Source: an uncultured Tolumonas sp.
Lineage (GTDB): Bacteria; Pseudomonadota; Gammaproteobacteria; Enterobacterales; Aeromonadaceae
Length of the DNA stretch: 64,000 bases
Direction of reading: 5' to 3'
Assembly: GCF_963676665.1 (NCBI RefSeq)
Contig: NZ_OY781390.1
Span: 62,001-126,000 of the forward strand
The position numbers and the translations under genes are program-made. Positions 33,377 through 47,974 of the stretch are shown here, one piece after another. Each line of letters opens with the position of its first letter. Positions within the stretch are counted from its first letter, which is position 1. A model generated the notes under the pieces. It was not told the DNA's origin. It saw only the letters and a program-made list of their open reading frames with translations, and made no database searches.

Positions 33377-36300
33377 ATCAACAGACTAATCGTCCGGCAA
33401 AATCTCGCTTTAATTTGTCATCGTGGGCGCTGGCTAATCAGCAATTAGTATCATTTTTTATGGTGATTATTATTGCTGCTGGGATCATGAGTTATGAGCG
33501 TTTACCTCGAAATGAAGACCCGGCCTTCACGATTAAAACAGCCGTCGTCTCTGCTGCGTGGCCTGGCGCTACCACAAGCGATACAGTCAACCTTGTGACC
33601 AATACGCTGGAGAAAAAACTGCAGGAAACACCGTATCTGGACTATATCGAAAGTTATACCCGTGCAGGTGAGTCTGTTATTTTTGTGAATTTACGGGATG
33701 ATGTGCCTCCGGCATCCGTGCCTCAAATCTGGTACACCATTCGGAAAAAAATGAATGATATTTCAACGTCCTTGCCGGAAGGGGTCAGCACACCAGCCGT
33801 AAATGATGAATTTGATGATACTTTCGGTACGATTTATGGATTTACCAGCGACGGTTTTTCAGCAAGGGAATTGCGCGATAAAGTTGATGATATTCGCGCT
33901 GAACTGCTGACAATTCCAGATGTGGGGAAAATTGACGTTTTAGGCGCTGAAGAAGAACAAATTGTTATCTCATTCTCCCCGAATAAACTGGCTGGGTTAG
34001 GCATAGATACGCAACAAGTGATTACATCAATCAAAGCCCAGAACACAGTGACACCGACAGGAATCGTTCGTACTGATAATGAAAAAATCGCATTGCGTGT
34101 TAGTGGAGCCTTCGTTTCTGAGCAGAGTATTCGTGATGTTACGCTGCATATCGGAAATAGATTTATACCACTCAGCGAAATTGCCACCATTTCTCGTAAA
34201 ACAGCAGAACCCCCCATACCTATATTTAAGGTGAACGGCGAAAAAGCACTGGGTCTGGCTATTTCAATGGCACCGACCGGAAATATGCTGAATTTTGGTC
34301 AGGCGATCAAAAGCAAAATGGCATCTGTCTCCGCCAAACTACCGTATGGCATTGATGTTATTAAAGTCGCCGATCAGTCTGCTGTTGTGAAAGAGGCTGT
34401 GGGTGGTTTTGTGCGAGTGCTGATGGAGGCTGTTGCTATTGTATTGGCAGTCTCTTTTGTCTCATTGGGTTCACGGGCAGGTTTAGTTGTCGCTGCATCC
34501 ATTCCTATTGTTTTAGCCATGACGTTCTTGGGCATGGAAATCGCTGGCATTGGCCTGCAGCGCATTTCTTTGGGGGCGCTGATCATTGCCTTAGGTTTAC
34601 TCGTTGATGATGCCATGATCACTGTCGAGGCCATGATCTCGCGATTGGAGGAAGGTTGGGACAGAAAACGTGCTGCGGCTTGGGCTTACGAAAGTACGGC
34701 ATTTCCGATGCTAACCGGAACACTCGTTATGATTGCTGGATTCATACCGGTTGGTTTTGCATCATCCAGCGCGGGCGAATACTGTTTCTCTCTCTTTGTC
34801 GTCGTATTGATTGCACTCATCAGCTCATGGATTGTTGCTGTTTTGTTTTCGCCTCTTCTCGGTGTTTGGTTACTGCCTGTTATTCAGAATTTACATCACA
34901 GTGAGCCAGGGCGAATCGCACGTTTTTATGCAAAGACACTACAGCGTGTGCTTCAAAATCGAAAACTGACATTATTAGTGGCTTTTTTGGCTCTTATACT
35001 GTCTTTATTTGGTGCCTCACGTTTGGAAGGTGAGTTTTTCCCTTCATCAGATCGACCTGAATTGCTGATTAGTCTGAATTTACCGCAAAATGCAGTACAA
35101 CATGCAACACATGAACAGGTTATGCGATTAGAAAAAATCCTCAAATCTGATGTCAATGTTGACCATTTTTCGACATATGTTGGCTCTGGGGCAGTTCGTT
35201 TCTATTTACCGATGGATGTGTTACTGCAACATGAAAACATCGCACAGTTGGTTGTCGTAGCAAAAGGGTTGAAAGAACGAGATCTACTGAGAGAAAAATT
35301 AAATCATCTGATGGAAACGCAATTCAGTGACCTTGTCTCGCGCGTATCGCCCTTGGAGTTAGGCCCTCCAGTCGGCTGGCCGTTGAAATATCGCATCTCG
35401 GGGCCAGATGTGACAAAGGTGAGAGAGTTCTCACTTAAGCTGGCAAATCTGGTGGCTAAAAACCCAGATACACGAGATATCAATCTTACCGCGGGTGAAC
35501 CGGAGCGGGCTGTTAATGTCTCTGTTAACCAGACGGAAGCGCGTGCTGTCGGGCTTAGTTCTCAGGATGTTGCCAACGCCTTAGCAACGATTTTTTCCGG
35601 CACAACATTAACCACTATTCGTGATAATAACCGTCTGGTCGACGTCGTCGCTCAGGGGATGCAAAGAAATCGGCGTGATATTGATACTGTTGCTAATCTG
35701 CAACTTGCTACGGCCGATGGACGGACCGAACCTTTACGTCAGATTGCCACCGTTTCTTATGGTGTTGAGCAACCGATTATATGGCGCCGGCAGAGAGAAG
35801 CATTTATCAGTGTCCAGATGGATGTTGCGCCAGGAGTAAAAGCGCCAACAGTATCCGCTAATCTTGCACCAGAAATTGAACATTTTCGCGCACAATTACC
35901 CGATGGTTACCAAATAACAGAAGGGGGCGTTGCTGTTGAATCAGCCAAAGGAAATACGTCTGTTTATACGGTACTTCCAGTCACTGTTGTAGTTATGCTG
36001 ATTTTATTGATGATTCAGCTGAAACGTTTTTCACGCATGTTATTGGCTTTTTTTACGGCACCCTTTGGCCTGATTGGTATTGTTGCTGCGATGTTACCCA
36101 CCGGCACACCTATGGGGTTTGTTGCTCTGCTGGGTGTGATTGCATTGGCTGGCATGATCATCCGAAATGCCGTGATATTGATCAGTGAGGTTGATAATAA
36201 TATCCAGAATGGGATCGCTGTACGGCCCGCAATTATGGCCGCCGCAGCGCATCGTTCACGGCCTATCATTCTGACAGCGTTAGCTGCCATTCTTGGTATG

Positions 36301-36429
36301 ATACCTATAGCCCATCAAATATTCTGGGGGCCAATGGCCTACGCTATTATTGGCGGGTTGATAGTCGCGACTGTGTTTACACTAACCGTTTTGCCTGCTG
36401 CGTTGAGTCTTATGATTGAGCGGGAGTGA
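33373..36429 (+). CDS. RND efflux transporter permease (second copy)
   Basis: A 1,018-residue RND pump. The N-terminal porter segment begins WPGATTSDTVNLVTNTLEKKLQETPYLDYIESYTRAG; TM4 contains LGLLVDDAMITVEAMISRLEEG with the proton-relay Asp pair. The C-terminal repeat has GVIALAGMIIRNAVILISEVDNNI. It belongs to the same broad family as the pump at 17589 but is only distantly similar in the porter regions. It overlaps its adaptor by 4 bp. No outer-membrane channel gene follows; the gene at 62523 is a candidate partner elsewhere in the window. Confidence 0.92.
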   Translation: MNQQTNRPAKSRFNLSSWALANQQLVSFFMVIIIAAGIMSYERLPRNEDPAFTIKTAVVSAAWPGATTSDTVNLVTNTLEKKLQETPYLDYIESYTRAGESVIFVNLRDDVPPASVPQIWYTIRKKMNDISTSLPEGVSTPAVNDEFDDTFGTIYGFTSDGFSARELRDKVDDIRAELLTIPDVGKIDVLGAEEEQIVISFSPNKLAGLGIDTQQVITSIKAQNTVTPTGIVRTDNEKIALRVSGAFVSEQSIRDVTLHIGNRFIPLSEIATISRKTAEPPIPIFKVNGEKALGLAISMAPTGNMLNFGQAIKSKMASVSAKLPYGIDVIKVADQSAVVKEAVGGFVRVLMEAVAIVLAVSFVSLGSRAGLVVAASIPIVLAMTFLGMEIAGIGLQRISLGALIIALGLLVDDAMITVEAMISRLEEGWDRKRAAAWAYESTAFPMLTGTLVMIAGFIPVGFASSSAGEYCFSLFVVVLIALISSWIVAVLFSPLLGVWLLPVIQNLHHSEPGRIARFYAKTLQRVLQNRKLTLLVAFLALILSLFGASRLEGEFFPSSDRPELLISLNLPQNAVQHATHEQVMRLEKILKSDVNVDHFSTYVGSGAVRFYLPMDVLLQHENIAQLVVVAKGLKERDLLREKLNHLMETQFSDLVSRVSPLELGPPVGWPLKYRISGPDVTKVREFSLKLANLVAKNPDTRDINLTAGEPERAVNVSVNQTEARAVGLSSQDVANALATIFSGTTLTTIRDNNRLVDVVAQGMQRNRRDIDTVANLQLATADGRTEPLRQIATVSYGVEQPIIWRRQREAFISVQMDVAPGVKAPTVSANLAPEIEHFRAQLPDGYQITEGGVAVESAKGNTSVYTVLPVTVVVMLILLMIQLKRFSRMLLAFFTAPFGLIGIVAAMLPTGTPMGFVALLGVIALAGMIIRNAVILISEVDNNIQNGIAVRPAIMAAAAHRSRPIILTALAAILGMIPIAHQIFWGPMAYAIIGGLIVATVFTLTVLPAALSLMIERE

Positions 36430-36558
36430 ATTAAGTAACTGACATCCAGAGTTAATCAGCGGTGAAAACAACACATATCTTGAAAACTGTATAACACCAA
36501 GAATCTGCTGATGTCATGTTATTGCTGTAAAATCGCTATACTTTGTGAAACAATGTTT

Positions 36559-36572
36559 TTTGCATATGCAAT
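36559..36572. promoter_or_regulatory. GCATATGC operator upstream of the DUF134 gene
   Basis: TTGCATATGCAA (36560-36571) is a perfect 12-bp palindrome 13 bp before the start codon, overlapping the leader. It is the same element found in pairs before dsbB, the NifX-like gene and the peroxiredoxin gene. Its position fits autorepression. Confidence 0.75.
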
Positions 36573-36584
36573 AAAGGATGATTT

Positions 36585-36866
36585 ATGGGTCGACCAAAGA
36601 TCCCCCGGAATATTTGTGGTAAACCCGCAGATAGCTGTTTTAAACCAAACGGTATTCCAATGTGTGAGCTGGAAAGAATCGACTTAGCGCCGGACGAGTT
36701 TGAAGCTCTGCGACTGGTTGATTTACAGGGAATGCTTCAGCAGGATGCTGCTGTCGTGATGGGGGTTTCACGTCAGACTCTTGCGAATCTGGTTAAGGCG
36801 GCGCGTTGTAAAGTTGTTGACTGTTTAGTGCATGGTAAGGCACTGATGATGCATTTGCCAGATTAA
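36585..36866 (+). CDS. DUF134 (UPF0251) DNA-binding protein
   Basis: The 93-residue protein has three N-terminal cysteines (C11, C18, C27: RNICGKPADSCFKPNGIPMCELE) followed by the DUF134 sequence LAPDEFEALRLVDLQGMLQQDAAVVMGVSRQTLANLVKAARCKVVDCLVHGKAL. The middle is a sigma-region-4-like helix-turn-helix. DUF134 proteins are often neighbours of NifX/NifB-type iron-molybdenum-cofactor-like proteins, as here (42815). The cysteines could bind a metal or an Fe-S cluster and act as the sensor. AAGGATG lies 6-7 nt upstream. It is the best candidate for the regulator of the palindromic sites in this region. Confidence 0.85.
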   Translation: MGRPKIPRNICGKPADSCFKPNGIPMCELERIDLAPDEFEALRLVDLQGMLQQDAAVVMGVSRQTLANLVKAARCKVVDCLVHGKALMMHLPD

Positions 36867-36933
36867 GGATTTAACTAACACATCTATTTACACATATCTC
36901 TTTGTTTGCAATGTGCAGAACCCAGAATTGAAA

Positions 36934-36973
36934 GACTATATTCCCAATTTTGTTATTTTTCGGGAATATAGTC
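36934..36973. terminator. Perfect 12-bp hairpin between DUF134 and rpmJ2
   Basis: GACTATATTCCC (36934-36945) pairs exactly with 36962-36973 around a 16-nt T-rich loop. It lies between convergent genes and can serve both strands. Confidence 0.8.
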
Positions 36974-36987
36974 CAATCACTTCAACC

Positions 36988-37113
36988 TCAACCCTGACGT
37001 GCTTTAAAGCGGGGGTTGGTTTTACAGATGACAAACACCTTTCCTCGACGTTTGACTATTTGACAATCCGGATGACGATTTTTTGCGCTTTTCAATGATG
37101 ATAATACTTTCAT
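36988..37113 (-). CDS. rpmJ2: Ribosomal protein L36, zinc-independent paralogue (L36B, YkgO-type)
   Basis: A 41-residue ORF starting at ATG 37113 ([20 protein letters not shown]) and ending with [13 protein letters not shown]. It matches the type-B L36 (YkgO-like) in length and sequence. The zinc-ribbon Cys/His set of classical L36 is not complete; only C17 and C30 remain. Such C-minus paralogues replace the zinc form in ribosomes under zinc starvation and are usually repressed by Zur. A Zur-like site lies 25 bp upstream. The usual partner, L31B, is not adjacent. Confidence 0.93.
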
Positions 37114-37137
37114 GATGATTCCGTTTTATGGTTGATA

Positions 37138-37152
37138 TGTTATAACGTAACA
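37138..37152. promoter_or_regulatory. Probable Zur box upstream of rpmJ2
   Basis: TGTTATAACGTAACA matches the gammaproteobacterial Zur core (TGTTATANTATAACA) at 13 of 15 positions counting the free base. The arms TGTTA/TAACA are intact. It stands 25 bp before the start codon, a position suited to repression by zinc-bound Zur. Confidence 0.72.
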
Positions 37153-37333
37153 CTATCTTTCTAGCGAAGCAATTTCCTCGTAATTGACGAGATGATACAA
37201 AGAGCATTACAAGATTTTATCCGTAAAATCGATACGAAATCAGTATATCCGGCAAGTGTAAGAGATTACGCGGCATCTTGATCAGATATGATCGTGATAT
37301 CATCACACTACGTGCAATAAGGTTTATTGATAA

Positions 37334-37705
37334 ATGTTATTATTAATGAGTTTAGCTCTGATAGGGTTGTCAGCGGGCGTGTTATCGGGTTTGTTTGGTA
37401 TTGGTGGTGGGGTTTTGATTGTACCAGCACTGGTGTACGGGCTTGGTTTTAGTCAGAAACTGGCAACCGGTACAAGTCTCGCTATTTTATTACCACCTGT
37501 CGGCATTGCGGCAGTCATGGAATATTACCGACAAGGTGCAGTTGATATTAAAGCTGCAATGATCATTGCAGTGATGGTGGTTGCAGGGAGCTGGTTTGGC
37601 TCAAGATTCTCTGTGGGTATTGATCCGGTCACTATGAAGTTACTCTTCGGTATTTTTCTGATCCTCCTCGGAGGATACATTATTCATGATGCCACATCCG
37701 GTTGA
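37334..37705 (+). CDS. Half-size TauE/SafE-family membrane protein (copy 2)
   Basis: The 123-residue protein contains the same single TauE repeat as copy 1 at 12048-12416: SAGVLSGLFGIGGGVLIVPALV and the identical stretch GFSQKLATGTSLAILLPPVG, ending LGGYIIHDATSG. Four membrane segments are predicted. The two paralogues share roughly two thirds of residues by eye. Half-size forms must pair to make the two-repeat channel; two copies with opposite membrane orientation would allow a heterodimer. AAGG stands about 10 nt upstream of the ATG. Its neighbour is rpmJ2, divergent. Confidence 0.8.
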   Translation: MLLLMSLALIGLSAGVLSGLFGIGGGVLIVPALVYGLGFSQKLATGTSLAILLPPVGIAAVMEYYRQGAVDIKAAMIIAVMVVAGSWFGSRFSVGIDPVTMKLLFGIFLILLGGYIIHDATSG

Positions 37706-37721
37706 ATTCTCAATTATGTAA

Positions 37722-37785
37722 TTGCATGCACTTAATCACTGAGTTGCATAGCCCCTAATAGGCTAATTGCATTACCTGGTTGCAT
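37722..37785. repeat. Four TTGCAT repeats
   Basis: TTGCAT occurs at 37722, 37744, 37767 and 37780 in the gap after the half-TauE gene. Spacings are 22, 23 and 13 bp, roughly two, two and one helical turn. Function unknown. Confidence 0.35.
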
Positions 37786-37801
37786 TCGATGTGACCACAA
37801 C

Positions 37802-37832
37802 TTCATATAAAGTTTACCGAGCTTTATATGAA
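37802..37832. terminator. Perfect 11-bp hairpin between convergent genes
   Basis: TTCATATAAAG (37802-37812) pairs exactly with 37822-37832 around a 9-nt loop, between the half-TauE gene and the minus-strand nucleoside-recognition gene. Confidence 0.6.
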
Positions 37833-37890
37833 CTATTTTAGGTATGGGGGCTCGTTCAGCAAATTCCATACACTAGCGAGATCTTATTTT

Positions 37891-38823
37891 TCAAAAAAGC
37901 ATGAAATGCAGCAGTGCTCTGATAAAAATACCGAATAAAGCGCCTTGTGCTGCATATTTAAATAGTCGAATGAAGCGATGGCTAATACCTAAAAAAATAC
38001 CAATACCCGGCAGATCAAATGCGTGAATTAAGAAACCCGCAGATGTATTGATTTGTTGAGCAGTGATTTTTCCCTGCTGCATTAAATCCGAAACAACCCC
38101 CAAATAGGCGGTTCCTCCTCCTAAATATTTCGCCAAAGCAGGCATGACAAACATAGGTGAAATATGAACGAATTCAAGAAATGGCGATAGCAATTGTTCG
38201 AGAGCTGCCACTGCACCAACAGCCTTAAGAAGACCAACCATAGTAATAGACAGGGTCAGCATCGGGATTGCACCAATAGCCAGTCTAATCGCGTCTGCTC
38301 CTGCTTCATTGATGAGTCTGATAATTCCCCGTGTTTTATGAGTTTCAGAAAGTGGTTTCTCTGAAGTGACAGATTCACAACTTGATAAATTGCGACCCAA
38401 ATAATGCCAAGTCAGTGCAGATGCAGATAGCCCGCCGATAATGGAAATTGTAATAGCCATAGTCCAGTTTAAACCCAATGAGATCATGGGATAAAGCACA
38501 TTACCTTGCCCCATAGCCAGCACCATCGCCAGCGTTGCTGCCAAATGACGGTCTGATACACCGCGTTTATTCATGACAGATAAAGTCGCAAGTGGTGCAG
38601 CGAAACTGATGAAATTAATTTGGATCAGGGCAAACGAACTCATTCCCGTCAGTCCGAATGGTTTCAGAAACCGAGCCATCCACTCGACTATGGTTTCCAT
38701 TATTCCCTTTGCTTCCAGGATCTTCATTACGCATAACATCACAACCATGACTGGCAGAAGCGTATAAAGCGCGATATCAACGGAGGTTTTCCCTGATGCC
38801 ATGATTATTTCAATGAGGGACAT
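37891..38823 (-). CDS. Nucleoside-recognition (Gate) domain membrane protein
   Basis: The 310-residue protein has about eight hydrophobic segments in two Gate-domain halves, resembling the fused SpmA/SpmB-like proteins. Key segments are FLKPFGLTGMSSFALIQINFISFAAPLATL and ISPMFVMPALAKYLGGGTAYLGVVSDL. Transport or sensing of nucleosides was proposed for the fold but never generally shown. It lies immediately upstream of the minus-strand PhzF/RidA genes with a 54-bp gap and may be cotranscribed downstream of them. Function unknown. Confidence 0.75.
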   Translation of the reverse strand: MSLIEIIMASGKTSVDIALYTLLPVMVVMLCVMKILEAKGIMETIVEWMARFLKPFGLTGMSSFALIQINFISFAAPLATLSVMNKRGVSDRHLAATLAMVLAMGQGNVLYPMISLGLNWTMAITISIIGGLSASALTWHYLGRNLSSCESVTSEKPLSETHKTRGIIRLINEAGADAIRLAIGAIPMLTLSITMVGLLKAVGAVAALEQLLSPFLEFVHISPMFVMPALAKYLGGGTAYLGVVSDLMQQGKITAQQINTSAGFLIHAFDLPGIGIFLGISHRFIRLFKYAAQGALFGIFIRALLHFMLF

Positions 38824-38877
38824 TCAATATTCCTGGAAGCATGTTTTTATCTAAAAGGTTGTATGATTACAGAATAA

Positions 38878-39708
38878 TTAGCGGATATATCTTGCTGTTC
38901 CAGAGACTCTGATACCCGCACCACGTTGTGGAGTGATCTCAGCTCGCAGGCAAGAGGGGACGCCCATGTCTTCTCCCTGATAGATCACGATTGAGCCTTC
39001 GTGTGGCCAGTCGATATCTCGCAGATATCCAGCCAGTGCCGCTGCTGCCGCCCCCGTTGCAGGATCTTCAAATACGCCCCCCAAAGGGAATGGGTTTCGT
39101 GCATGGAATAATCTAGGCTGTTCAGCATAAAGCAAACTGAATGTTATCAAGCCTTCACGCAGTGCCATCTCGCGTCCTTTTTGCAGATCATATTGCATCG
39201 CTTGTAATGTCGCGCGATCTTTGAGGGCCAAAATAAGGTGATCACCACCCCCATGCGCGATAGCAGGCGGGATCCGAACATCAAGATCATTATGGTCGAG
39301 ACCAAACAATGCCAGTGCTTCGTCTAATAACGCATTTGCAACAGGACGACTTCGGGTGGGTGGAGATAGAAAAGAGGCTCCCCATTCATTCTCGGAGAAA
39401 CGACCTTCAACTGTGATCTGAGTACGGTTAAGCTTTAGAGTAAAAATGCCAGGACCTTTGCTTTTTGCCAGAGCTGCGCCGAGCGCGATGGTCGCATGGC
39501 CACAAAAATCCACTTCAACTTCAGGCGCGAAATAACGCACCCGCCATCCCTCTTCACATGGCGCGGCAAATACGGTCTCGGAATAGCCGATTTCAGCCGC
39601 TAATTCCTGCATAACATTCGCATCTGGCATGACATCACATAGAACAACGCCAGCCGGGTTACCACCGATAGGGCCATTCGAGAAAGCAGCAATGTGTTGT
39701 ACGTTCAT
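38878..39708 (-). CDS. PhzF-family isomerase-like protein
   Basis: The 276-residue protein shows both PhzF/DapF-like halves: AFSNGPIGGNPAGVVLCD near the N terminus with Glu44 in GYSETVF (the PhzF catalytic Glu), then DFCGHATIALGAAL, and in the second half FEDPATGAAAAALAGYL. The family includes phenazine-synthesis isomerases and many enzymes of unknown substrate. There are no phenazine genes here. Its start overlaps the RidA stop by 4 bp, suggesting joint handling of an enamine or imine intermediate. Confidence 0.88.
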   Translation of the reverse strand: MNVQHIAAFSNGPIGGNPAGVVLCDVMPDANVMQELAAEIGYSETVFAAPCEEGWRVRYFAPEVEVDFCGHATIALGAALAKSKGPGIFTLKLNRTQITVEGRFSENEWGASFLSPPTRSRPVANALLDEALALFGLDHNDLDVRIPPAIAHGGGDHLILALKDRATLQAMQYDLQKGREMALREGLITFSLLYAEQPRLFHARNPFPLGGVFEDPATGAAAAALAGYLRDIDWPHEGSIVIYQGEDMGVPSCLRAEITPQRGAGIRVSGTARYIR

Positions 39709-40106
39709 GATCCATTCCTATTTTCATTGTGCGAGCAATTACATTCGGCTGTTTCCGGGGATGATTTTAGAGATTCAAAAGAAGCAATTAGATCAATCTC
39801 TATCAATGCGCCTTCTATCGCCAACGCTGAGATAACGGTTGATCGAGTGGGTTTATGCACGCCAAATTCACGAGCAAATGCCAAATCAAACCGCTGGAAA
39901 TTTGCCTGTTCGGTGATCCAAACGCCGGCTTTCACAACAGCTTCAGGGCGCAGACCATGTTGAGCTAATACAGCAAACTGACGCTCAAGGATCAACGCTG
40001 TCTGCGTCTCAATATCACCACTGATGTTGCCTGTATCATCAAATGCGAGTTGACCAGATAAAAATAACAATGAACCGGTTCGTATCGCTGGGGAAAAATG
40101 AGGCAT
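39705..40106 (-). CDS. RidA-family (YjgF) reactive-intermediate deaminase
   Basis: The 133-residue protein has the RidA-type sequence MPHFSPAIRTGSLLFLSGQLAFDDTGNISGD, then a central VVKAGVWITEQANFQRFD and the end ALAIEGALIEIDLIASFE. The usual catalytic Arg in the C-terminal CVEV-type strand is not evident, so it may be one of the Rid subfamilies without deaminase activity. ATG 40106 follows AAGGAG. It is followed by phzF with a 4-bp overlap. Confidence 0.82.
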   Translation of the reverse strand: MPHFSPAIRTGSLLFLSGQLAFDDTGNISGDIETQTALILERQFAVLAQHGLRPEAVVKAGVWITEQANFQRFDLAFAREFGVHKPTRSTVISALAIEGALIEIDLIASFESLKSSPETAECNCSHNENRNGS

Positions 40107-40213
40107 AAATAGTGCTCCTTTCTTTGTCACTGTTGAATGAAGACAAATTCTGAGCACTTGCATCAAATGATGCAATAGCAGCTAATTGCAGATCAGAGCT
40201 GCATATTTTGCAT

Positions 40214-41167
40214 CTATGGTTGACCTGGATCTGAACAGCTTAATGGCTCAGACTGACCCCAGGGGATCGAATGAAATAGATCAGTAACCCAGGAAATGAA
40301 TTTATCCGTGCGGGCTGACACGTAGCGGCGAGAAGGACGAACCAGATAGACGCCACCATCGCCATCAAAGGTCCATTGAGGTAAGATCCGGATCAATGTT
40401 CCGGCAGCAATATCGCGAGCCAGTAGCCATTCTCCTGCCCCTAAAATGCCAATGCCCGCGCGAGCAGCGTCAAGCATCGCAATGCTATCATTGGTGTGTA
40501 ACGTGCCATTCGTCCGCACCATCTCCACGCATTTCCCATCAGATAAACGCCAAATAGGGTAAGAGTTGAGGCTCGGATTCCCGATACAGTTGTGTGCGAG
40601 CAGATGTGCGGGTTCAAGCGGCATTCCGTGCCGTGCTACATAAACAGGCGATGCGGCAAGAACGCGTTGATGCGCCGCCAGCTTACGCGCTACGAGACGA
40701 TTGTCTGCCAAGTTACCAATCCGGATGGCAGCATCGAAACCACCTTCGACAAGATCGACAAACTCATCACTATAATGAATATCAAGTTCCAGTTTAGGGT
40801 ACATCGCCATAAAGTCAGGTAACTTTGGCGCAAGCCACAGTCGCCCCATTGTTGCGGGTAATGCCAACTTTAAACATCCCCGTAGTTCCGCCGCGGCATC
40901 GGTTGCCTCCTGCTGCGCTTCATAGATAAGATCAGTCGCTATTCTGAGTTTGTCGGCAAGACGCTTTCCTGCATCTGTCAGTTGTACCTGTCGTGTTGTT
41001 CGTTCGACCAAGCGAATACCTAATCGAACCTCTAGCGAGGCGATGCGTTTTGATATGATGGTCGGATGACGCTCAATCGCTTTTCCTGCTGCAACGAAGG
41101 AGTTCGTAGAGGCAACAGCTAATAAGGCCGCTATTTCATCTATATGTTGGCTGTCTAATTTGATCAT
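40214..41167 (-). CDS. LysR-family transcriptional regulator
   Basis: The 317-residue protein has an N-terminal winged helix-turn-helix (AALLAVASTNSFVAAGKAIERHPTIISKRIASLEVRLGIRLVERTTRQVQLTDAG) and a periplasmic-binding-like effector domain (LKLALPATMGRLWLAPKLPDF). It belongs to the CrgA/PecT-like LTTR branch. It is 108 bp upstream of ridA-phzF on the same strand and is likely their regulator. The gap contains no other gene. Confidence 0.9.
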   Translation of the reverse strand: MIKLDSQHIDEIAALLAVASTNSFVAAGKAIERHPTIISKRIASLEVRLGIRLVERTTRQVQLTDAGKRLADKLRIATDLIYEAQQEATDAAAELRGCLKLALPATMGRLWLAPKLPDFMAMYPKLELDIHYSDEFVDLVEGGFDAAIRIGNLADNRLVARKLAAHQRVLAASPVYVARHGMPLEPAHLLAHNCIGNPSLNSYPIWRLSDGKCVEMVRTNGTLHTNDSIAMLDAARAGIGILGAGEWLLARDIAAGTLIRILPQWTFDGDGGVYLVRPSRRYVSARTDKFISWVTDLFHSIPWGQSEPLSCSDPGQP

Positions 41168-41308
41168 CTTTGGGAACCTTGCACCATTTTATCGGCACAA
41201 TACCAGAAACTGATTCGATCCTATCAAGTGGTAAACACCAGAAAGATGAAAAATTGTTTTATTTTCTTTCACATTTACTTGATGCGAAAGTGCAATGCAA
41301 TCAGATGC

Positions 41309-41347
41309 ATCGAATGCAGTTGGATACTCAAGTCAAATGCATTCGAT
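41309..41347. repeat. 10-bp inverted repeat upstream of the LysR gene
   Basis: ATCGAATGCA (41309-41318) is exactly inverted at 41338-41347 with a 19-nt spacer. It lies in the divergent space between the LysR gene and dsbB, so it could be a LysR site. The remainder of 41168-41469 shows no supported gene. Confidence 0.45.
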
Positions 41348-41469
41348 CAGTTCGGGGAAATTTTGCACTCGATCCGGGCATCTTACCGGCCATTCTTTAT
41401 CACTTATCAAATAACACCTGTTCAGATTGAGCTGGCGTGAGAGTCTGCAATATAAAATCCACAATTAAT

Positions 41470-41511
41470 ATTGCATATGCCAAAAAATTATTGTTACATG
41501 GCATATGCCAA
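41470..41511. promoter_or_regulatory. Paired GCATATGC operators before dsbB
   Basis: Two 14-mers, ATTGCATATGCCAA (41470-41483) and ATGGCATATGCCAA (41498-41511), are 28 bp apart, start to start. The second contains the perfect palindrome TGGCATATGCCA. They end 25 bp before the start codon. Confidence 0.78.
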
Positions 41512-41536
41512 TTAATAAAGGAGAGGAGAGAATAGG

Positions 41537-42061
41537 ATGGTCTTCTGGTTGCGTCATATCACGCGAGAGCGTTCTGCTTGGCTCTTGCTAGGATTATCAG
41601 CTGTATTTCTCGAAGTATGTGCTTTGTTATTCCAGCATGGACTGGGTTTACGCCCATGTTTGATGTGTATTTATGAGCGTCTTGTCGTTATTGGTTTACT
41701 TGGTTCGTCTTTGCTCGCACTGATAGATCCCGCGAAAAAAGTTTGGCGCTGGGGTGGACTGATTTTGTGGGGTTTAAGTATTTACCGAGGGTTACAGTTG
41801 TCGCTGAGACATGTTGATTATCTGCTTCATCCGTCACCATTCAACACTTGTTCATTTTTCCCCGATTTCCCTTCCTGGTTGCCGTTGGATGTTTGGTTCC
41901 CCTGGTGGTTCAAGCCTTTAGCGGAGTGTTCTGAGCGCCAATGGAATTTATGGGGCTGGGAATTACCTCAGTGGCTGGTGCTGATTTTTAGCGTGTATCT
42001 GATCATCTGGAGCGTCATCGTCGCTGCCAATTTGCTGACGCACAAATATCTGGCCGAATGA
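41537..42061 (+). CDS. dsbB: Disulfide bond formation protein DsbB
   Basis: The 174-residue inner-membrane protein has four predicted spans. The quinone-side motif PCLMCIYER gives the first redox pair (C41, C44); the periplasmic loop pair is C105 (FNTCSFFPDFPSWLP) and C131 (FKPLAEC). DsbB re-oxidises DsbA and passes electrons to ubiquinone or menaquinone. The loop between C105 and C131 is Trp-rich (WLPLDVWFPWWF) as in the family. It is not beside dsbA; instead a Fur paralogue follows after 51 bp. Expression is probably under the paired palindromes upstream. Confidence 0.9.
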   Translation: MVFWLRHITRERSAWLLLGLSAVFLEVCALLFQHGLGLRPCLMCIYERLVVIGLLGSSLLALIDPAKKVWRWGGLILWGLSIYRGLQLSLRHVDYLLHPSPFNTCSFFPDFPSWLPLDVWFPWWFKPLAECSERQWNLWGWELPQWLVLIFSVYLIIWSVIVAANLLTHKYLAE

Positions 42062-42112
42062 ATACAGGTTCTCTTGAAATTTTTTGCGGTATCAGAACTT
42101 GCGGAGCGAGGC

Positions 42113-42577
42113 ATGAGCATAAAAAAACTCAAAAAAGCAGGGCTTAAAATAACGAATCAGCGTATGACCGTTCTTGATTATCTGTCTGGTGCAGATGAAC
42201 ACCACCTCAGCGCTGAGGATATCTTCAGAGATCTGCGTCTGAATGGAGCCGATGTTGGTCAGGCGACGGTATACCGCGTGCTCAACCAGCTTGAAAAAGC
42301 AGGAATGCTTGAACGCCATCATTTCGAAGGTAGCAAAGCCTATTATGAATTGAAATCGAAAGATCATCATGATCATCTGGTTTGTCTGCGTTGCGGAAAG
42401 ATAGTTGAGTTTTTTGATCCCTTTATCGAACAACGACAGAAAGAGATTGCTGAACAATACGGCATGCAACTGAGCCATCATCATTTGTATATGTTTGGCT
42501 ATTGTTCTGATCCTAATTGCAGGCTTAATACGCCAGTAATTATACGTTCATCTATTGCGTGTGATGTATGTCTTTAA
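42113..42577 (+). CDS. Fur-family metalloregulator (paralogue)
   Basis: The 154-residue protein aligns along its length with Fur: KKAGLKITNQRMTVLDYL, ATVYRVLNQLEKAGMLERHHFEGSKAYYEL and HHDHLVCLRCGKIVEFFDP. The metal-site histidines (HHDH 85-88) and three cysteine pairs are seen (C91/C94, C131/C136 and a C-terminal CDVC at 150-153). The terminal CDVC pair is unusual for Fur. The gene stands in a redox cluster rather than near flavodoxin, so it may be a PerR- or Zur-like specialist or an iron sensor of this regulon. GGAG lies 7 nt before ATG 42113. Confidence 0.87.
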   Translation: MSIKKLKKAGLKITNQRMTVLDYLSGADEHHLSAEDIFRDLRLNGADVGQATVYRVLNQLEKAGMLERHHFEGSKAYYELKSKDHHDHLVCLRCGKIVEFFDPFIEQRQKEIAEQYGMQLSHHHLYMFGYCSDPNCRLNTPVIIRSSIACDVCL

Positions 42578-42606
42578 TCCAATGGTTAGGTTTTATTCAT
42601 TTATAT

Positions 42607-42649
42607 ATTGCATATGCCAAATAAAAGCCCTATAGTTTGCATATGCTAA
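42607..42649. promoter_or_regulatory. Paired GCATATGC operators before the NifX-like gene
   Basis: ATTGCATATGCCAA (42607-42620) and TTTGCATATGCTAA (42636-42649) are 29 bp apart. They lie about 165 bp upstream of the coding start, in a gap of 237 bp that holds no gene. Confidence 0.75.
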
Positions 42650-42814
42650 TTATTGCCGTTCCTGATTTTTGGATGTGAATGTTTTGAAAGGCAATGTCGC
42701 GTCAGGGAAAGGCAATAATTGGCTGCATCAGGTCAGAACTCGTTGCTGTAATTTGCAGGAAGTTATCAGGTTCGGGATAAGACTATTTACTTATTTTTTA
42801 TGGAGATATGTCCG

Positions 42815-43360
42815 ATGATTACTGCTATTCCTATGAAAGAAGATCGCGTTGCCAGCCATTTTACTAAGGCCGACAGTTTTGTTTTTGTTAATGAAAACGG
42901 TGATGTGTTATCCCGTAAAGCAAACCCTGCGCTGAATGCCAATTGTGCTGGTAAAAAAGATCTGCTTGACCTGTTGAAGGCTGAAAATGCACAACGGGTT
43001 ATTGTGCGTAATATTGGTGAACGGATTCTGAGCAAATTACTTGAAAGCCAGTTTTCTGTATATCAGACCAGTTGTGGTCGCCAAAATGTAAAGGAAATGG
43101 CGAGTGAGCAGGCTGATAAGTTGACGCACATGACCAGCCCGTCACAAGGGCGCCAATCATTGAATTATGAAGCGAAGCAAGCCAGCGGTGGATGTGGTTG
43201 TGAGCACGAAGGGCATGAAGGTCGTCAATCTCACTGTGATCATGACAATCAAGGTCATTCACATGCTCATCAACAGGGGGCTGGCCGTTGTTGCCAAAGC
43301 CGCAGTGATGCACAAGTTGCAGAGCGTGGTCATGGCAAAGGACGTTGCTGCCATTCATGA
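42815..43360 (+). CDS. NifX/NafY-like iron-molybdenum-cofactor-binding domain protein with Cys/His tail
   Basis: The first 95 of 181 residues match the dinitrogenase iron-molybdenum cofactor biosynthesis domain: IPMKEDRVASHFTKADSFVFVNENG and ENAQRVIVRNIGERILSKLLESQFSVYQ. The last 60 residues are a low-complexity metal-binding tail with seven cysteines (GGCGCE, SHCDHD, GRCCQS, GRCCHS) and about nine histidines. Such domains occur in NifX, NafY and in orange-protein type Mo/Cu proteins that neighbour DUF134 genes in anaerobes. It may store or chaperone a metal cluster. GGAG stands 8 nt before ATG 42815. It overlaps a small membrane protein gene. Confidence 0.8.
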   Translation: MITAIPMKEDRVASHFTKADSFVFVNENGDVLSRKANPALNANCAGKKDLLDLLKAENAQRVIVRNIGERILSKLLESQFSVYQTSCGRQNVKEMASEQADKLTHMTSPSQGRQSLNYEAKQASGGCGCEHEGHEGRQSHCDHDNQGHSHAHQQGAGRCCQSRSDAQVAERGHGKGRCCHS

Positions 43361-43524
43361 GTATTTGGATTGCCGTTTTTGCTGGTTTTTTATCGCTATT
43401 GATCATTGCTGTTGCCATGGCAGGGTTCTTTTTCTTGCTGACAAAAACAGTTGAAAAATCAGCTATATCAGAAGAAGAAAATGACAATATCGAACGTAAC
43501 GAAGATGGAACCATTCATTTTTGA
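43357..43524 (+). CDS. 55-residue single-span membrane protein
   Basis: ATG 43357 overlaps the stop of the NifX-like gene (ATGA). The product begins MSIWIAVFAGFLSLLIIAVA and has one long hydrophobic span (about 3-28), then an acidic tail (SEEENDNIERNEDGTIHF). Coupled translation, no frame interruption and a stop exactly before the next operator region make it very likely real. Function unknown; it may anchor the NifX-like protein at the membrane. Confidence 0.72.
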   Translation: MSIWIAVFAGFLSLLIIAVAMAGFFFLLTKTVEKSAISEEENDNIERNEDGTIHF

Positions 43525-43546
43525 TTTTGTCAAAGTCATATTTTTA

Positions 43547-43596
43547 TTGGAATATGCCAAAAATTAAAGTATCATTCATATATTAGCTTTAGCTAA
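43547..43596. promoter_or_regulatory. Paired palindromes before the peroxiredoxin gene
   Basis: TTGGAATATGCCAA (43547-43560) differs by one base from the ideal TTGGCATATGCCAA. A second dyad, TTAGCTTTAGCTAA (43583-43596), keeps the GC(C/T)AA half-site type. Starts are 36 bp apart, and the second ends 27 bp before ATG 43624. Confidence 0.68.
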
Positions 43597-43623
43597 TATA
43601 TGGCTCTAACCAAGGAGTTTATG

Positions 43624-44271
43624 ATGACTGAAACCGTAAACAATGTGGCTATGCCACGTTTAAATGAAGCGGCTCCGACATTTACTGCCAAAACAACTCA
43701 CGGCATGCTGAGTTTGTCTGATTACAAAGGTAAATGGCTGGTGTTGTTCTCGCATCCAGCCGATTTTACGCCGGTTTGTACAACAGAGTTCATGGGGTTT
43801 GCGAAAGCTAGCGGTGATTTTAAAGCGCTGAACTGTGAATTACTGGGGTTATCGATTGATGGTGTTCATGCTCATATTGCTTGGGCGCGTAGCATCAAAG
43901 ATAACTTTGGTGTTGAAATCAATTTCCCCATCATTGCAGATCTGAATATGGCGGTTGCACGCGTTTATGGCATGGTTCAGCCGGGTGCCAGTGATACATC
44001 AGCAGTGCGAGCAACGTTTGTGATCGACCCCGATGGGGTTCTGCGGGCGATGCTATATTACCCAATGAGTAATGGTCGTTCTGTTGCTGAAATCCTCCGT
44101 CTGGTGAAGGCATTACAGACAACAGATAACAATGTATGCGCAACACCCGAAAACTGGCAACCGGGAGATGAAGTCATTGTTCCCCCGCCAGCAACAACGA
44201 TGGCGGCAGAGGCACGTAAAAGCGAAGGCTATAACTACACAGACTGGTATTTCAGTAAACGTAAATTATAA
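43624..44271 (+). CDS. Peroxiredoxin (Prx6/AhpC-type)
   Basis: The 215-residue protein has the active-site motif SHPADFTPVCTTEF with peroxidatic Cys52, and a second cysteine near the end (C172 in NNVCATPENW) as in archaeal-type Prx6 enzymes. The C-terminal arm EVIVPPPATT fits the family. It reduces hydrogen and organic peroxides, taking electrons from a thioredoxin-like or AhpD-like donor; an AhpD-like gene lies in the same operon. ATG 43624 has AAGGAG six bases upstream; an in-frame ATG at 43621 is also possible. It is the first gene of a seven-gene operon. Confidence 0.9.
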   Translation: MTETVNNVAMPRLNEAAPTFTAKTTHGMLSLSDYKGKWLVLFSHPADFTPVCTTEFMGFAKASGDFKALNCELLGLSIDGVHAHIAWARSIKDNFGVEINFPIIADLNMAVARVYGMVQPGASDTSAVRATFVIDPDGVLRAMLYYPMSNGRSVAEILRLVKALQTTDNNVCATPENWQPGDEVIVPPPATTMAAEARKSEGYNYTDWYFSKRKL

Positions 44272-44324: not shown

Positions 44325-45302
44325 ATGAGCAATCTCCAGACAGATCATCAAGCCGTTGCAGAACAAAGTCGATTAATGCATTTTCCGGTTTCCTTTTTTT
44401 CAATCGTGATGGGATTAAGTGGGTTAACGCTGGCTTGGAAAGTTGCAGGACAGGCGCTCCCAGCATCCGTGTCGTTTATTCTGATGCTGTTTACTTCTGT
44501 CGTGATGACAATCATTGCTGTTTTTTATGGCGCAAAATGGTGGTTTTATCCAAAAGCCGTATTACATGAATTACGTCATCCAGTTCGGATCAATTTTTTC
44601 CCTGCTTTCTCGATTAGTTTGTTGTTACTGTCTGTGGCTTGGCAAACGAATTCTCAGGTAGCGTTCGGATTGTGGCTATGTGGTGCCGTGATCCAATTTT
44701 GTTTGACGCTCTATGTGATGAGCAGCTGGATCCATCACACACATTACACATTATCACACGCTAATCCGAGCTGGTTTATTCCGGTGGTAGGCAACATTAT
44801 TGTGCCGATAAGCGGTACTCACTTTGGCTACACCGAACTCAGTTGGTTCTTTTTTAGTATCGGTATTGTTTTCTGGTTAGCGTTGCTGACTATCGTGCTG
44901 TACCGATTATTTTTTCATGAGCCTCTACCTGCCCGCATGACGCCAATGCTGTTCATTCTTTTGGCACCGCCGTCAGTCGGATTCGTTTCTTACAGTAGTC
45001 TGGTCGGTGGTTTAGATAATTTTGGCCGGATCCTCTATTACATCGCTTTGTTTCTTAGTTTGTTGTTATTTAGCAATGTACTTCGTTTTATCAGGATCCC
45101 GTTTTTTATCTCTTCATGGGCTTACTCGTTTCCGGTTGCTGCGTTGACGATAGCGACGAAGAAAATGTTTTTGTTTACGGCATCGCCTTTTTTCAATGTG
45201 CTGTTTACAGGGCTGATTTCAATATTGTCATTTTTGGTGCTGTGGCTTGTCATCAGAACCTGCAAAGCAGTGATTGCCGGTGATCTGTGCCGACCTGAAT
45301 AA
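44325..45302 (+). CDS. SLAC1/TDT-family anion permease
   Basis: The 325-residue inner-membrane protein has about ten spans in the TDT/SLAC1 pattern: HFPVSFFSIVMGLSGLTLAWK, then NPSWFIPVVGNIIVPISGTHFGYTELSWFFFSIG, in which PVVGNIIVP is a strong hallmark. Relatives are bacterial TehA, plant SLAC1 and fungal sulfite pump Ssu1. In an operon with a persulfide reductase and rhodaneses, sulfite or another small sulfur anion is the most likely substrate, but this is inference. GAGG stands five bases before ATG 44325. Confidence 0.85.
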   Translation: MSNLQTDHQAVAEQSRLMHFPVSFFSIVMGLSGLTLAWKVAGQALPASVSFILMLFTSVVMTIIAVFYGAKWWFYPKAVLHELRHPVRINFFPAFSISLLLLSVAWQTNSQVAFGLWLCGAVIQFCLTLYVMSSWIHHTHYTLSHANPSWFIPVVGNIIVPISGTHFGYTELSWFFFSIGIVFWLALLTIVLYRLFFHEPLPARMTPMLFILLAPPSVGFVSYSSLVGGLDNFGRILYYIALFLSLLLFSNVLRFIRIPFFISSWAYSFPVAALTIATKKMFLFTASPFFNVLFTGLISILSFLVLWLVIRTCKAVIAGDLCRPE

Positions 45303-45354: not shown

Positions 45355-47064
45355 ATGACAAAGATTGTGATCATCGGTGGTGTGGCTGGCGGTGCCTCTG
45401 CTGCTGCCAGAGCGCGTCGGTTATCTGAAACAGCCAAAATTATTGTTTTAGAACGCGGTGAGTTTGTTTCATTTGCTAACTGTGGTTTGCCTTATCACAT
45501 CAGTGGTGAAATTGAGACTCGTGAAGCATTGCTGCTGCAAACACCGGAGAGTTTTAAACATCGCTTTAATGTTGATGTGCGGGTATTTAATGAAGTTATT
45601 TCTATCAACAAACATAAAAAAGAAGTCACAGTGCGTCGGGTTTTAACCGGAGAAATCTATCAGGAATCCTACGATAAGTTATTGCTGAGTCCGGGGGCTT
45701 CGCCGGTTAAACCGCCTATTCCTGGTATCAATAGCCATCATGTTTTCAGTTTGCGCAATATCCCGGATATGGATCAAATCCTCTCTTCCTTGCTACTGAA
45801 TAAACCCAAACATGCCACGGTTGTTGGTGGTGGTTTTATCGGGCTGGAAATGGTTGAGGCATTACACCATCGCGGGATCAAGGTGACATTACTGGAATTA
45901 TCAGATCAGGTTATGGCTCCGGTAGACCGAGAAATGGCCAATATGCTGCATCAGAAATTGGTCGAGAATGGAGTCGATTTACGCCTGAATACCGGACTGA
46001 CAGCAGTCAAAGAACTGGAAATTGAACCCGCAGAGCCAGAAGCGACGGGGGAATATGATAAGCAAATTGAACATACCAACACGCTGGAATTGATGTTGAG
46101 TAACGGCGAGATGCTGAAAACCGGACTGGTTGTGTTGGCAATTGGTGTCAAACCAGAAACCATGCTAGCTAATCAGGCTGGTTTGGAATTGGGAGCCCGT
46201 GGCGGCATCAAAGTTGATGCCCGTATGTGCACGTCTGACCCAGAGATCTATGCGGTAGGTGATGCTGTTGAAACAGAAGACTTTATGACTGCTTTGCCTT
46301 CTTTGGTGCCACTTGCCGGCCCTGCAAACCGACAAGGGCGTATTGCTGCTGATAATATGCTAGGGCGTCGTGAAATTTATCGCCGCACGCAGGGCACGTC
46401 CATCTGTAAGCTGTTTGATATGGCGATTGGCAGCACGGGGATCAATGAGAAAACGCTGAAACGGTTAAAACTGCCTTATGAAAAAATCTATGTGCACACA
46501 GCCAGCCATGCCAGCTATTACCCAGGTGCACACCCGGTCACGTTGAAATTATTGTTTAACCCTACCGATGGTGAAATTCTAGGCGCACAGGCAGCAGGGT
46601 TGGATGGTGTCGATAAACGCATTGATGTGTTGGCGGTTGCGCAAAGAGCTCGTATGAGCGTTTATACATTGCAAGATCTGGAACTCACCTATGCTCCACC
46701 GTTTGGCTCGGCCCGTGATGTGGTGAATCAGGCGGGGATGGTGGCATCTAACATCCTGAAAGGGGATGCGGCTATTTGCCATACGGAAGAACTCCAGTTA
46801 GGTGCAGCCGATCATATCGTACTGGATGTGCGTAATCCGCCTGAACTTGAGGCATCCGGCTCCTTCCCAAATGCGATTAATATCCCGCTGGATCAATTAC
46901 GTCAGCGGTTAAACGAATTACCGAAAGATAAAGAACTTCTGGTTGCCTGTCAGGTGGGGCTGCGGGGGCATGTCGCTTGCAGAATGCTGATCCAGCATGG
47001 ATTCAAAGCCCGCAATCTGACTGGGGGATTCAAAACCTATCAGATGGTCACTGCAAAATTTTAA
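45355..47064 (+). CDS. CoA-disulfide/persulfide reductase with C-terminal rhodanese domain
   Basis: The 569-residue flavoprotein starts MTKIVIIGGVAGGASAAARARR and has its redox Cys43 in VSFANCGLPYHI, the CoA-disulfide reductase single-cysteine signature. The NAD(P)H motif reads ATVVGGGFIGLEM. After about residue 480 comes a rhodanese domain whose active-site Cys532 lies in ACQVGLRGHVA. Such CoADR-Rhd proteins reduce CoA persulfide or polysulfides with NADH, as shown for Npsr of Shewanella. The position fits cytoplasmic persulfide clearance. AGGAG lies 6 nt before ATG 45355. Confidence 0.92.
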   Translation: MTKIVIIGGVAGGASAAARARRLSETAKIIVLERGEFVSFANCGLPYHISGEIETREALLLQTPESFKHRFNVDVRVFNEVISINKHKKEVTVRRVLTGEIYQESYDKLLLSPGASPVKPPIPGINSHHVFSLRNIPDMDQILSSLLLNKPKHATVVGGGFIGLEMVEALHHRGIKVTLLELSDQVMAPVDREMANMLHQKLVENGVDLRLNTGLTAVKELEIEPAEPEATGEYDKQIEHTNTLELMLSNGEMLKTGLVVLAIGVKPETMLANQAGLELGARGGIKVDARMCTSDPEIYAVGDAVETEDFMTALPSLVPLAGPANRQGRIAADNMLGRREIYRRTQGTSICKLFDMAIGSTGINEKTLKRLKLPYEKIYVHTASHASYYPGAHPVTLKLLFNPTDGEILGAQAAGLDGVDKRIDVLAVAQRARMSVYTLQDLELTYAPPFGSARDVVNQAGMVASNILKGDAAICHTEELQLGAADHIVLDVRNPPELEASGSFPNAINIPLDQLRQRLNELPKDKELLVACQVGLRGHVACRMLIQHGFKARNLTGGFKTYQMVTAKF

Positions 47065-47133: not shown

Positions 47134-47478
47134 ATGGCAAAAAGTTACAAAGAAATTAATCAGGATCAACGCCAATTTGGTTCGGCATATCGCAAGGCCA
47201 GCCCGGATACCATGAATGCTTTTCTGGCGTTACACAAAGCAGCGATGGTTGAAGGGGCTGTCAGCATTAAGCATAAAGAGCTGATTGCTACCGGCATTGC
47301 CATTGCAGCCCGTTGTGATGGTTGCATTGGCGCACATGTAGCCGCGGCACTGAAAGCGGGAGCAACCAAACAAGAATTAATTGAAACCATTGATGTGGCG
47401 ATACTGATGGGTGGTGGTCCGGCGGTTATTTACGGAACACAGGCACTGGCAGCGGTTGAGGAGCTGTCAGCTGAGTAA
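47134..47478 (+). CDS. AhpD-like carboxymuconolactone-decarboxylase-family protein
   Basis: The 114-residue protein has the AhpD-like motif ARCDGCIGAHVAAALKAGATKQEL, with the redox CxxC at C61/C64 and a His at 68, followed by ETIDVAILMGGGPAVIYG. In AhpD this CxxCxxxH is the thiol-disulfide active site that reduces AhpC. In an operon led by a peroxiredoxin it probably acts as its reductase or as a general thiol oxidoreductase. A damaged fragment of a relative appears to lie at 20888-20956. A ribosome-binding AAGGAG precedes it. Confidence 0.9.
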   Translation: MAKSYKEINQDQRQFGSAYRKASPDTMNAFLALHKAAMVEGAVSIKHKELIATGIAIAARCDGCIGAHVAAALKAGATKQELIETIDVAILMGGGPAVIYGTQALAAVEELSAE

Positions 47479-47530: not shown

Positions 47531-47974
47531 ATGAAGACTTATCAGGCATGTCTGCAAAGTCATGCACATTGTGTGGTATGCAGTGATGGCAATACGAACC
47601 CGCATTCACTGCAACTTAGTTTTAATCCGATCTCTGAAAACGAAGTATCGGCGGAGTATCAGGTCAATAAAAAACATCAAGGATATACTGATTTATTGCA
47701 TGGTGGCATCGCCAGTACCTTACTGGATGCGGCGATGACGCACTGTTTGCTTTCGAAAGGGATTGAAGCTCTGACCGCCGAGCTGAATGTACGCTTCCAT
47801 ACTCCCGTGTTAGTCGGTGATACCGTACAGATCATTGGCCGTCTTATCAGTCAGCGGCGGGGCATCTATCTGTTGGAAGCTACCTTATCCGTAGCCAAAC
47901 AAGTATGCGTGAAGGCGACAGGTAAATTCATTCAACCCAAAGGCGGAGTGATCCATCGTGAGTTGCCAGTTTGA
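47531..47974 (+). CDS. PaaI-type hotdog thioesterase
   Basis: The 147-residue protein has the hotdog motif YTDLLHGGIASTLLDAAMTHCL, with the HGG at residues 57-59 and the Asp of LLDAAMT where PaaI-type thioesterases place their catalytic acid. It begins with a short Cys-containing leader (HAHCVVCSDGN). It probably hydrolyses an acyl-CoA or acyl-thioester. It overlaps the next gene by 17 bp, so the two are coupled. Why a thioesterase sits in a persulfide operon is not obvious; CoA-thiol recycling for the CoA-disulfide reductase is one possibility. Confidence 0.87.
   Translation: MKTYQACLQSHAHCVVCSDGNTNPHSLQLSFNPISENEVSAEYQVNKKHQGYTDLLHGGIASTLLDAAMTHCLLSKGIEALTAELNVRFHTPVLVGDTVQIIGRLISQRRGIYLLEATLSVAKQVCVKATGKFIQPKGGVIHRELPV

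Follow-up and report, generated by a model that had tools for sequence, protein, structure and literature searches.

A DUF134 protein of Tolumonas as the probable repressor of a small sulfur- and metal-handling regulon with a 20-bp palindromic operator

We analyzed a window of 64,000 nucleotides from an uncultured Tolumonas sp. of the Aeromonadaceae (NCBI RefSeq assembly GCF_963676665.1, contig NZ_OY781390.1, positions 62,001 to 126,000 of the forward strand; the coordinates below are those of the window). It encodes a 93-amino-acid protein of the DUF134 family (PF02001), which we take to be the same family as UPF0251 and COG1342. Our comparison suggests that this protein is a one-component repressor that binds its own 20-bp palindrome, TWWWTRGCATATGCYAWWWA, and controls a small regulon of sulfur- and metal-handling genes, a reading to which we assign a probability of roughly 0.78. 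DUF134 is very probably the binder of the palindrome, and it probably acts by repression. The operator, its link to DUF134, its targets and the promoter geometry emerge from the comparison of genomes, and the gene content suggests sulfane sulfur or iron-sulfur stress as the signal. In the literature found, a body in which subscription journals mostly fall outside coverage, no operator, regulon or function was described for DUF134, and no DUF134 regulon was attached to the palindromes GGCATATGCC and GCATATGC.

Operator sites in the window and in related genomes

The original prediction had listed seven near-identical 14-bp palindromes in front of four transcription units. Six of them (36559, 41470, 41498, 42607, 42636 and 43547) are present as described and correspond to 20-bp palindromes starting at 36556, 41467, 41495, 42604, 42633 and 43544. 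They scored 21.5-26.7 bits with a 20-bp matrix trained on 30 distinct sites that precede DUF134 genes, all outside Tolumonas. The seventh, at 43583 (TTAGCTTTAGCTAA), did not stand as an operator: the corresponding 20-mer (43580..43599, forward strand) scored -0.9 bits and differs in the same-genus genomes G003 and G008, which keep the 43547 site base for base. The absence of such sites elsewhere in the window was borne out, the next best position reaching only 6.4 bits, which leaves a gap of 15 bits. About 0.005 positions of at least 20 bits are expected per 64 kb on an order-0 background. In 60 first-order random windows the top score was 11.1 bits on average and 21.4 bits in one case; one site could therefore be due to chance, six clustered sites could not. 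The 14-mer of the original prediction gave 8 matches at three mismatches vs. 5.92 expected (26 of 100 shuffles reached 8), which is not significant alone. At two mismatches it matched 24 places in the whole genome vs. 8 for the control and is too loose for use alone.

The six sites stand on the forward strand in front of the DUF134 gene, the dsbB-Fur paralogue unit, the NifX-like gene and the peroxiredoxin operon. O1 (TTTTTTGCATATGCAATAAA, 36556..36575, 23.1 bits) lies 25 bp before the start codon of the DUF134 gene (36585..36866, forward strand), the proposed autoregulated repressor gene, and the same position upstream of DUF134 is occupied in other genera. The operator is often paired at a distance of 28-29 bp. 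The dsbB promoter carries the distal O2 (41467..41486, 22.6 bits) and, 28 bp after it, the proximal O3 (41495..41514, 26.7 bits); the NifX-like promoter carries the distal O4 (42604..42623, 26.6 bits) and, 29 bp after it, the proximal O5 (42633..42652, 22.4 bits). O6 (43544..43563, 21.5 bits) belongs to the peroxiredoxin promoter. The conservation in relatives that the original prediction called for was found: the dsbB sites, O2 included, recur in G003 and G008, the NifX-like sites are likewise kept in same-genus genomes, and the O6 20-mer is identical in G003 and G008; a Vibrio has a further site ahead of a less closely related peroxiredoxin gene.

For the other genera we compared 66 loci from named genomes that encode close DUF134 relatives, 64 of them outside Tolumonas. 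In these 66 loci we counted 84 copies of the core GCATATGC, against 6-41 for each of the other 8-bp palindromes of similar composition. Outside Tolumonas, 29 of the 64 loci have exact-core sites at most 250 bp before DUF134, 39 in all; the distance from the nearest one to the start codon is usually 23-27 bp. The operator thus stands ahead of the gene of its proposed binder, as expected of an autoregulator; in other loci the site precedes a NifX-like gene instead. Ten named genomes (nine Vibrio and one Shewanella) have no site beside DUF134, and each carries one elsewhere, ahead of a NifX-like gene; of the 19 sites in these genomes, 17 precede a NifX-like, PaaI, SLAC1 or peroxiredoxin gene. The Shewanella loci with a Fur paralogue show the order site, DUF134, Fur paralogue, and CoA-disulfide reductase or rhodanese family protein.

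Farther away, at the DUF134 loci of Desulfobulbaceae (L092-L094), the matrix found nothing at 14 bits, and visual inspection of the upstream sequences showed no palindrome. A DUF134 match above the cut-off was found in 14 of 398 genomes from the phylum: eight belong to this order, one (G398) has a clear DUF134 protein, and five match at 27-29 bits and look sigma-type. The DUF134 locus of G398 has no operator site. Since these loci are without sites, we make no operator claim outside the order beyond single loci, e.g., in Parendozoicomonas and Salinibius.

Co-occurrence with DUF134 and the targets

We searched 345 genomes of the order for the exact pattern WWNNTDGCATATGCHANNWW, counting a genome as DUF134-positive when it had a profile match over the cut-off; some of the genomes tested are of species that had also supplied training loci. 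The pattern was found in 55 of 59 DUF134-positive genomes (97 sites) vs. 55 of 286 DUF134-negative genomes (60 sites; Fisher p 6e-28), the latter at a chance-like rate of ∼0.2 sites per genome. The association holds within six genera (Mantel-Haenszel p 5e-15), where positive vs. negative genomes with sites number 8/8 vs. 0/11 (g4), 14/14 vs. 1/10 (g16), 11/12 vs. 2/14 (g26), 7/10 vs. 2/15 (g10), 4/4 vs. 1/3 (g14), and 2/2 vs. 0/2 (g17). In the four DUF134-positive genomes that lack the exact pattern (G170, G207, G254 and G263), DUF134 or a NifX-like gene is preceded by a one- or two-base variant of it: TTATTGGCGTATGCCAATAA, TTATTGGCGTAGGCCAATAA (in two of them) or TTTCTGGCATAGGCCAGAAA. In the genus of the window, both DUF134 and sites are missing from G001, G007 and G009 (95, 87 and 70% complete) and present in the six other genomes, which have 1 to 14 sites each; the 14 sites of G008 all lie within the clusters of its three DUF134 genes. 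The NifX domain (PF02579) also follows DUF134 in g4, being present in all 8 positive genomes and in 0 of the 11 others.

Tallied by hand, 66 of the 97 genome-wide sites lie within ∼1.5 kb of DUF134, four (in the window) are 5-6 kb from it, and the other 27 have no linkage to it; 21 of these 27 precede NifX-like, PaaI-type thioesterase, NqrM-like or sulfurtransferase (SseA-like) genes. These 97 sites are less biased than our table of 207 sites, many of whose loci were fetched through DUF134; in that table six sites have no reference gene, two of which (in G251) stand ahead of a PF02579 gene. Genes regulated by or neighboring the sites encode a CoA-disulfide reductase with rhodanese, SseA-like and PspE-like sulfurtransferases, TauE, Dps, and NqrM. 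At locus L192 (G329) a two-domain rhodanese (SseA-like) follows a 27.6-bit operator at 259 bp, the one target of this type observed. In Vibrionaceae and others (L082, L196, L188 and others), small cysteine proteins resembling NqrM occur as neighbors or targets.

Two findings limit this picture. Six unlinked sites, all below 22 bits, are unexplained. G278, which has no DUF134 over the threshold, carries a 28-bit site before a PaaI-like gene (C20:1675, L209); among 20 loci of DUF134-negative genomes checked, the other 19 have no regulon gene after the site. The G278 site may mark a lost or missed regulator, or it may be a true counterexample.

Promoter layout, the DUF134 protein and alternative readings

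A spacing of 28 or 29 bp is found in 56 of 69 distinct site pairs. Promoter elements were scored in the 53 pairs with a spacing of 28-29 bp and a known downstream gene; single sites and other spacings fall outside this test. A -10-like hexamer (at most two mismatches) abuts the proximal site in 51 of the 53 pairs, at the same offset in 49, and control windows average 3.26 mismatches. The distal site supplies a -35 hexamer, TTGGCA in 17 pairs, TTGCAT in 16 and poorer ones in the others, with 17-18 bp to the -10 element in 50 pairs; the hexamer is three mismatches from TTGACA in 22 of the 53 and hence weak in many. In the window, O4 holds TTGCAT (42608-42613), 17 bp from a -10-like TATAGT (42631..42636, forward strand) that abuts O5 at the offset seen in other pairs. 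O2 likewise holds TTGCAT (41471-41476), and O6 holds TTGGAA (43547-43552) 17 bp ahead of TATCAT (43570-43575). The proximal site covers the likely transcription start and ends at the ribosome-binding site; with the distal site at -35, this layout fits repression. Pairs with a spacing of 33-34 bp, most of which stand between divergently oriented DUF134 and PaaI genes, appear to have the proximal site itself at -35. A -10 scan around all 223 oriented sites was muddy, with peaks at -8, +20 and +21, and also at -11, -2, +3 and +9 from the letters of the motif itself, and the class test was hardly above controls.

The window protein matches PF02001 with 79.1 bits (cut-off 27) over profile positions 5-90 of 98, nearly the full length, and is 97% identical to the proteins of Tolumonas osonensis and of a Tolumonas metagenome-assembled genome. 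A weak Sigma70_r4_2 match (E 1.6e-5) falls just below its cut-off. The AlphaFold model (predicted local distance difference test score, pLDDT, 91.7) appears to resemble sigma region 4. A role as sigma factor was rejected, as the 93 residues hold a region-4-like domain only, without region 2. A basic N-terminal arm, an FKPNG motif and a helix-turn-helix are conserved, and R3, R8, K20, P21, N22, E38, E40, S62, R63, T65, R74 and K76 are invariant among 69 aligned DUF134 proteins. Of the three N-terminal cysteines pointed out in the original prediction, C11 (59/70) and C18 (52/70) are conserved and C27 is not; at least two cysteines occur within the first 30 residues in 65 of 69 proteins. In a profile search, DUF134 matched none of the ArsR/CsoR-type persulfide sensor models. 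Diverged DUF134 proteins of 46-50% identity, with a KCR..S.C arm, occur at L257, L258 and L259 (G254, G207 and G263) beside GGCGTAGGCC or GGCATAGGCC operators, with GGCGTAGGCC variants in G207 and G254. The surroundings, with a thioredoxin-like gene in L257 and L259 and an NnrS gene in L257, hint at a connection with nitrosative stress.

We propose that a dimer of sigma-region-4-like helix-turn-helix domains would bind TWWWTRGCATATGCYAWWWA. At tandem promoters the distal site would hold the -35 hexamer, the proximal site would run from the -10 element to the ribosome-binding site, and bound DUF134 would shut out RNA polymerase. It would repress its own gene together with those for the NifX-like protein with its His/Cys-rich tail and the PaaI-type thioesterase. 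Depending on the lineage, CoA-disulfide/persulfide reductase with rhodanese, SLAC1-type transporter, peroxiredoxin, DsbB, Fur paralogue, NqrM-like and sulfurtransferase proteins would be added. The signal would be sensed by the cysteine pair of the N-terminal arm. Reactive sulfane sulfur, perhaps with iron, is our tentative candidate, favored because of the analogy with sulfur-response systems (SurR; NADH-dependent persulfide reductase), and a metal or peroxide is about as likely. A more far-reaching version, which we consider rather unlikely, is that a free-standing sigma-region-4 domain dimerizes on back-to-back -35-like hexamers (TTGGCA-T/A-TGCCAA), competes with sigma70 for the -35 element and is released by sulfane sulfur, with or without iron, at the arm cysteine pair. 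The NifX-centered regulon would then be a bacterial counterpart of the archaeal SurR/IssA response, traveling on conjugative plasmids.

The identity of the binder was weighed against three other candidates. A Fur gene lies in the dsbB operon and another beside DUF134 in Shewanella loci, which could make the Fur paralogue or the housekeeping Fur the binder; this is largely refuted, because all 19 genomes of g4 have two Fur-family genes and yet the sites follow DUF134 there as given above, and because sites in Aeromonas, Vibrio and plasmid loci have no adjoining Fur paralogue. The 14-mer of the original prediction happens to read TTGGCATATGCCAA, which would suit a CRP/FNR-family regulator (FNR, NnrR or HcpR type) binding TTG-N8-CAA. 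FNR-type sites have the consensus half-sites TTGAT-N4-ATCAA with a free centre, but here it is this centre, GCATATGC, that is invariant, and the flanking TTG varies (position -1: A 12, G 13, T 5); the training sites were chosen for the exact core, and sites picked by a looser matrix agree on the conserved centre. As the sites also track DUF134 inside genera, we regard a CRP/FNR-type binder as highly improbable. Co-occurrence alone cannot name the binder, and another regulator co-inherited with DUF134 might occupy the sites. By clustering, however, DUF134 is the one DNA-binding gene common to the loci, and the Klebsiella plasmid operon DUF134-NifX-PaaI-Dps contains no other regulator, the ArsR gene there being separate and its promoter without a site; a co-inherited binder is thus quite improbable. 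The original proposal of a DUF134 regulon with its own operator, its own promoter included, is supported by conservation across genera, co-occurrence across and inside genera, unlinked conserved targets and the failure of the Fur alternative. The metal- or redox-sensing role suggested there may be narrowed to sulfane sulfur, or to iron together with sulfide.

Two further alternatives accept DUF134 as the binder and differ in what it does or senses. Class II activators sit at -35, and the sigma-region-4-like fold could let DUF134 aid the polymerase there. Activation would not easily fit the 51 of 53 pairs whose proximal site starts beside the -10-like hexamer and extends over the likely start, and sites also stand ahead of DUF134 itself; we consider this mode of action unlikely. 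A repressor that senses a metal (iron, copper or molybdenum) or peroxide, not sulfane sulfur, is a serious though tentative possibility. The His/Cys-tailed NifX-like proteins and the Fur paralogue, Dps and NqrM neighbors speak for it, as does the binding of Fe-S or thiometallates by relatives of the NifX domain, described in PMC5524996. The CoA-disulfide reductase, rhodanese, SseA-like, TauE and BigR-like genes point to sulfur instead, and iron and sulfide may act together.

Gene neighborhood, plasmids and known systems

All genes of the four units are on the forward strand. Downstream of DUF134, with no operator of its own, lies a half-length TauE/SafE-type transporter gene (37334..37705, 123 amino acids; PF01925, profile 129-236 of 237). 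A half-length gene also follows DUF134 in G003, G005 and G008. It probably encodes a real half transporter, because its length, that of the second half of the profile, is kept in same-genus genomes. The dsbB gene for a disulfide bond formation protein (41537..42061, 174 amino acids; PF02600, NCBIfam PRK01749 above the cut-off) is followed by the Fur paralogue (42113..42577, 154 amino acids; PF01475, Fur equivalog 180 bits vs. cut-off 146), which is read here as a member of the regulon and not its regulator. The NifX-like gene (42815..43360, 181 amino acids) encodes a Nitro_FeMo-Co domain (PF02579, E 1.7e-10) and a His/Cys-rich tail; a tail with at least five His and Cys residues is found in 86 of 106 relatives. 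Its stop codon is overlapped by an open reading frame for a small membrane protein (43357..43524, 55 amino acids) with counterparts in L262 and L266. The peroxiredoxin unit comprises genes for a peroxiredoxin with a 1-Cys-type C-terminal domain (43624..44271; PF00578, PF10417), a TDT/SLAC1-type anion transporter (44325..45302; PF03595), a CoA-disulfide-reductase-like flavoprotein with a C-terminal rhodanese domain (45355..47064; PF07992, PF00581; best NCBIfam match TIGR03385, below the cut-off), a carboxymuconolactone-decarboxylase/AhpD-like protein (47134..47478; PF02627) and a PaaI-like thioesterase (47531..47974), followed by a metallo-beta-lactamase-fold protein. Proteins related to the thioesterase match PF03061, and its relatives elsewhere have operators of their own.

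Between DUF134 and dsbB, the reverse strand (38878-41167) carries PhzF-like and RidA-like genes, named by reading the sequence, and a LysR regulator gene, without an operator; this stretch is missing between the two genes in G003 and G008. RND-type efflux adaptor and pump genes (32270-36429, also named by reading) end just before O1. Contig C11 of the window's genome (G000) encodes three more Nitro_FeMo-Co proteins, at 386477, 467676 and 471095, possibly in a nitrogen-fixation cluster.

The predicted regulon occurs in Vibrio, Shewanella, Aeromonas and Tolumonas; plasmids carry it in Klebsiella, Citrobacter, Enterobacter and E. coli. DUF134 relatives occur on 189 of 72,556 plasmid records. At least 80% of the operator-DUF134-NifX block of a Klebsiella plasmid is carried by 167 plasmid records and by 21 of 5,426 complete E. 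coli genomes. Paired sites are present in the four plasmids inspected (L311, L312, L313 and L314). Aeromonas media pMC64A holds nearly the set of the window in one run: DUF134, NifX, SLAC1, CoA-disulfide-reductase-like oxidoreductase, AhpD-like, PaaI, metallo-beta-lactamase, dsbB, rhodanese and Dps. On Klebsiella, E. coli and Citrobacter plasmids (L311, L314 and L315) the DUF134-NifX-PaaI-Dps operon adjoins an IS110-family element (IS5075/IS4321) and a BigR-like ArsR gene, whose product scored 91.6 bits, under the BigR cut-off of 155. CoA-disulfide-reductase-like and isoprenylcysteine methyltransferase-like genes follow in L311 and L314. In L315 the operon is flanked by mercury genes (a mercury operon) on one side and a Tn3-family transposase on the other, and its thioesterase is annotated only as a shorter hotdog protein.

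BigR/SqrR-type ArsR repressors are cysteine-bearing and repress sulfur genes; they share no sequence kinship with DUF134, although a BigR-like gene adjoins the plasmid operon. The SurR regulon of Thermococcales depends on an unrelated archaeal redox regulator and a different operator. NSR is akin to CoA-disulfide reductases. An NADH-dependent persulfide reductase is described in PMC7969121. The orp operons of Desulfovibrio (orange protein) likewise hold regulated Nitro_FeMo-Co-type genes (PMC6345978); a reference title there names sigma54 and a cognate activator as their regulators, and the passages concerned make no mention of DUF134.

DUF134 would thus be a one-component, palindrome-binding regulator of a known kind in a family previously without a function. 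A widespread family of no known function gains a predicted operator, regulon, mode of action and testable targets. The predicted regulon joins NifX-like proteins outside nitrogen fixation, PaaI-like thioesterases and CoA-disulfide/persulfide reductases in one response. If the signal is sulfane sulfur, DUF134 would add one more family of persulfide-sensing repressors, and if it uses sigma region 4 on doubled -35 hexamers, it would show how a sigma domain can become a repressor.

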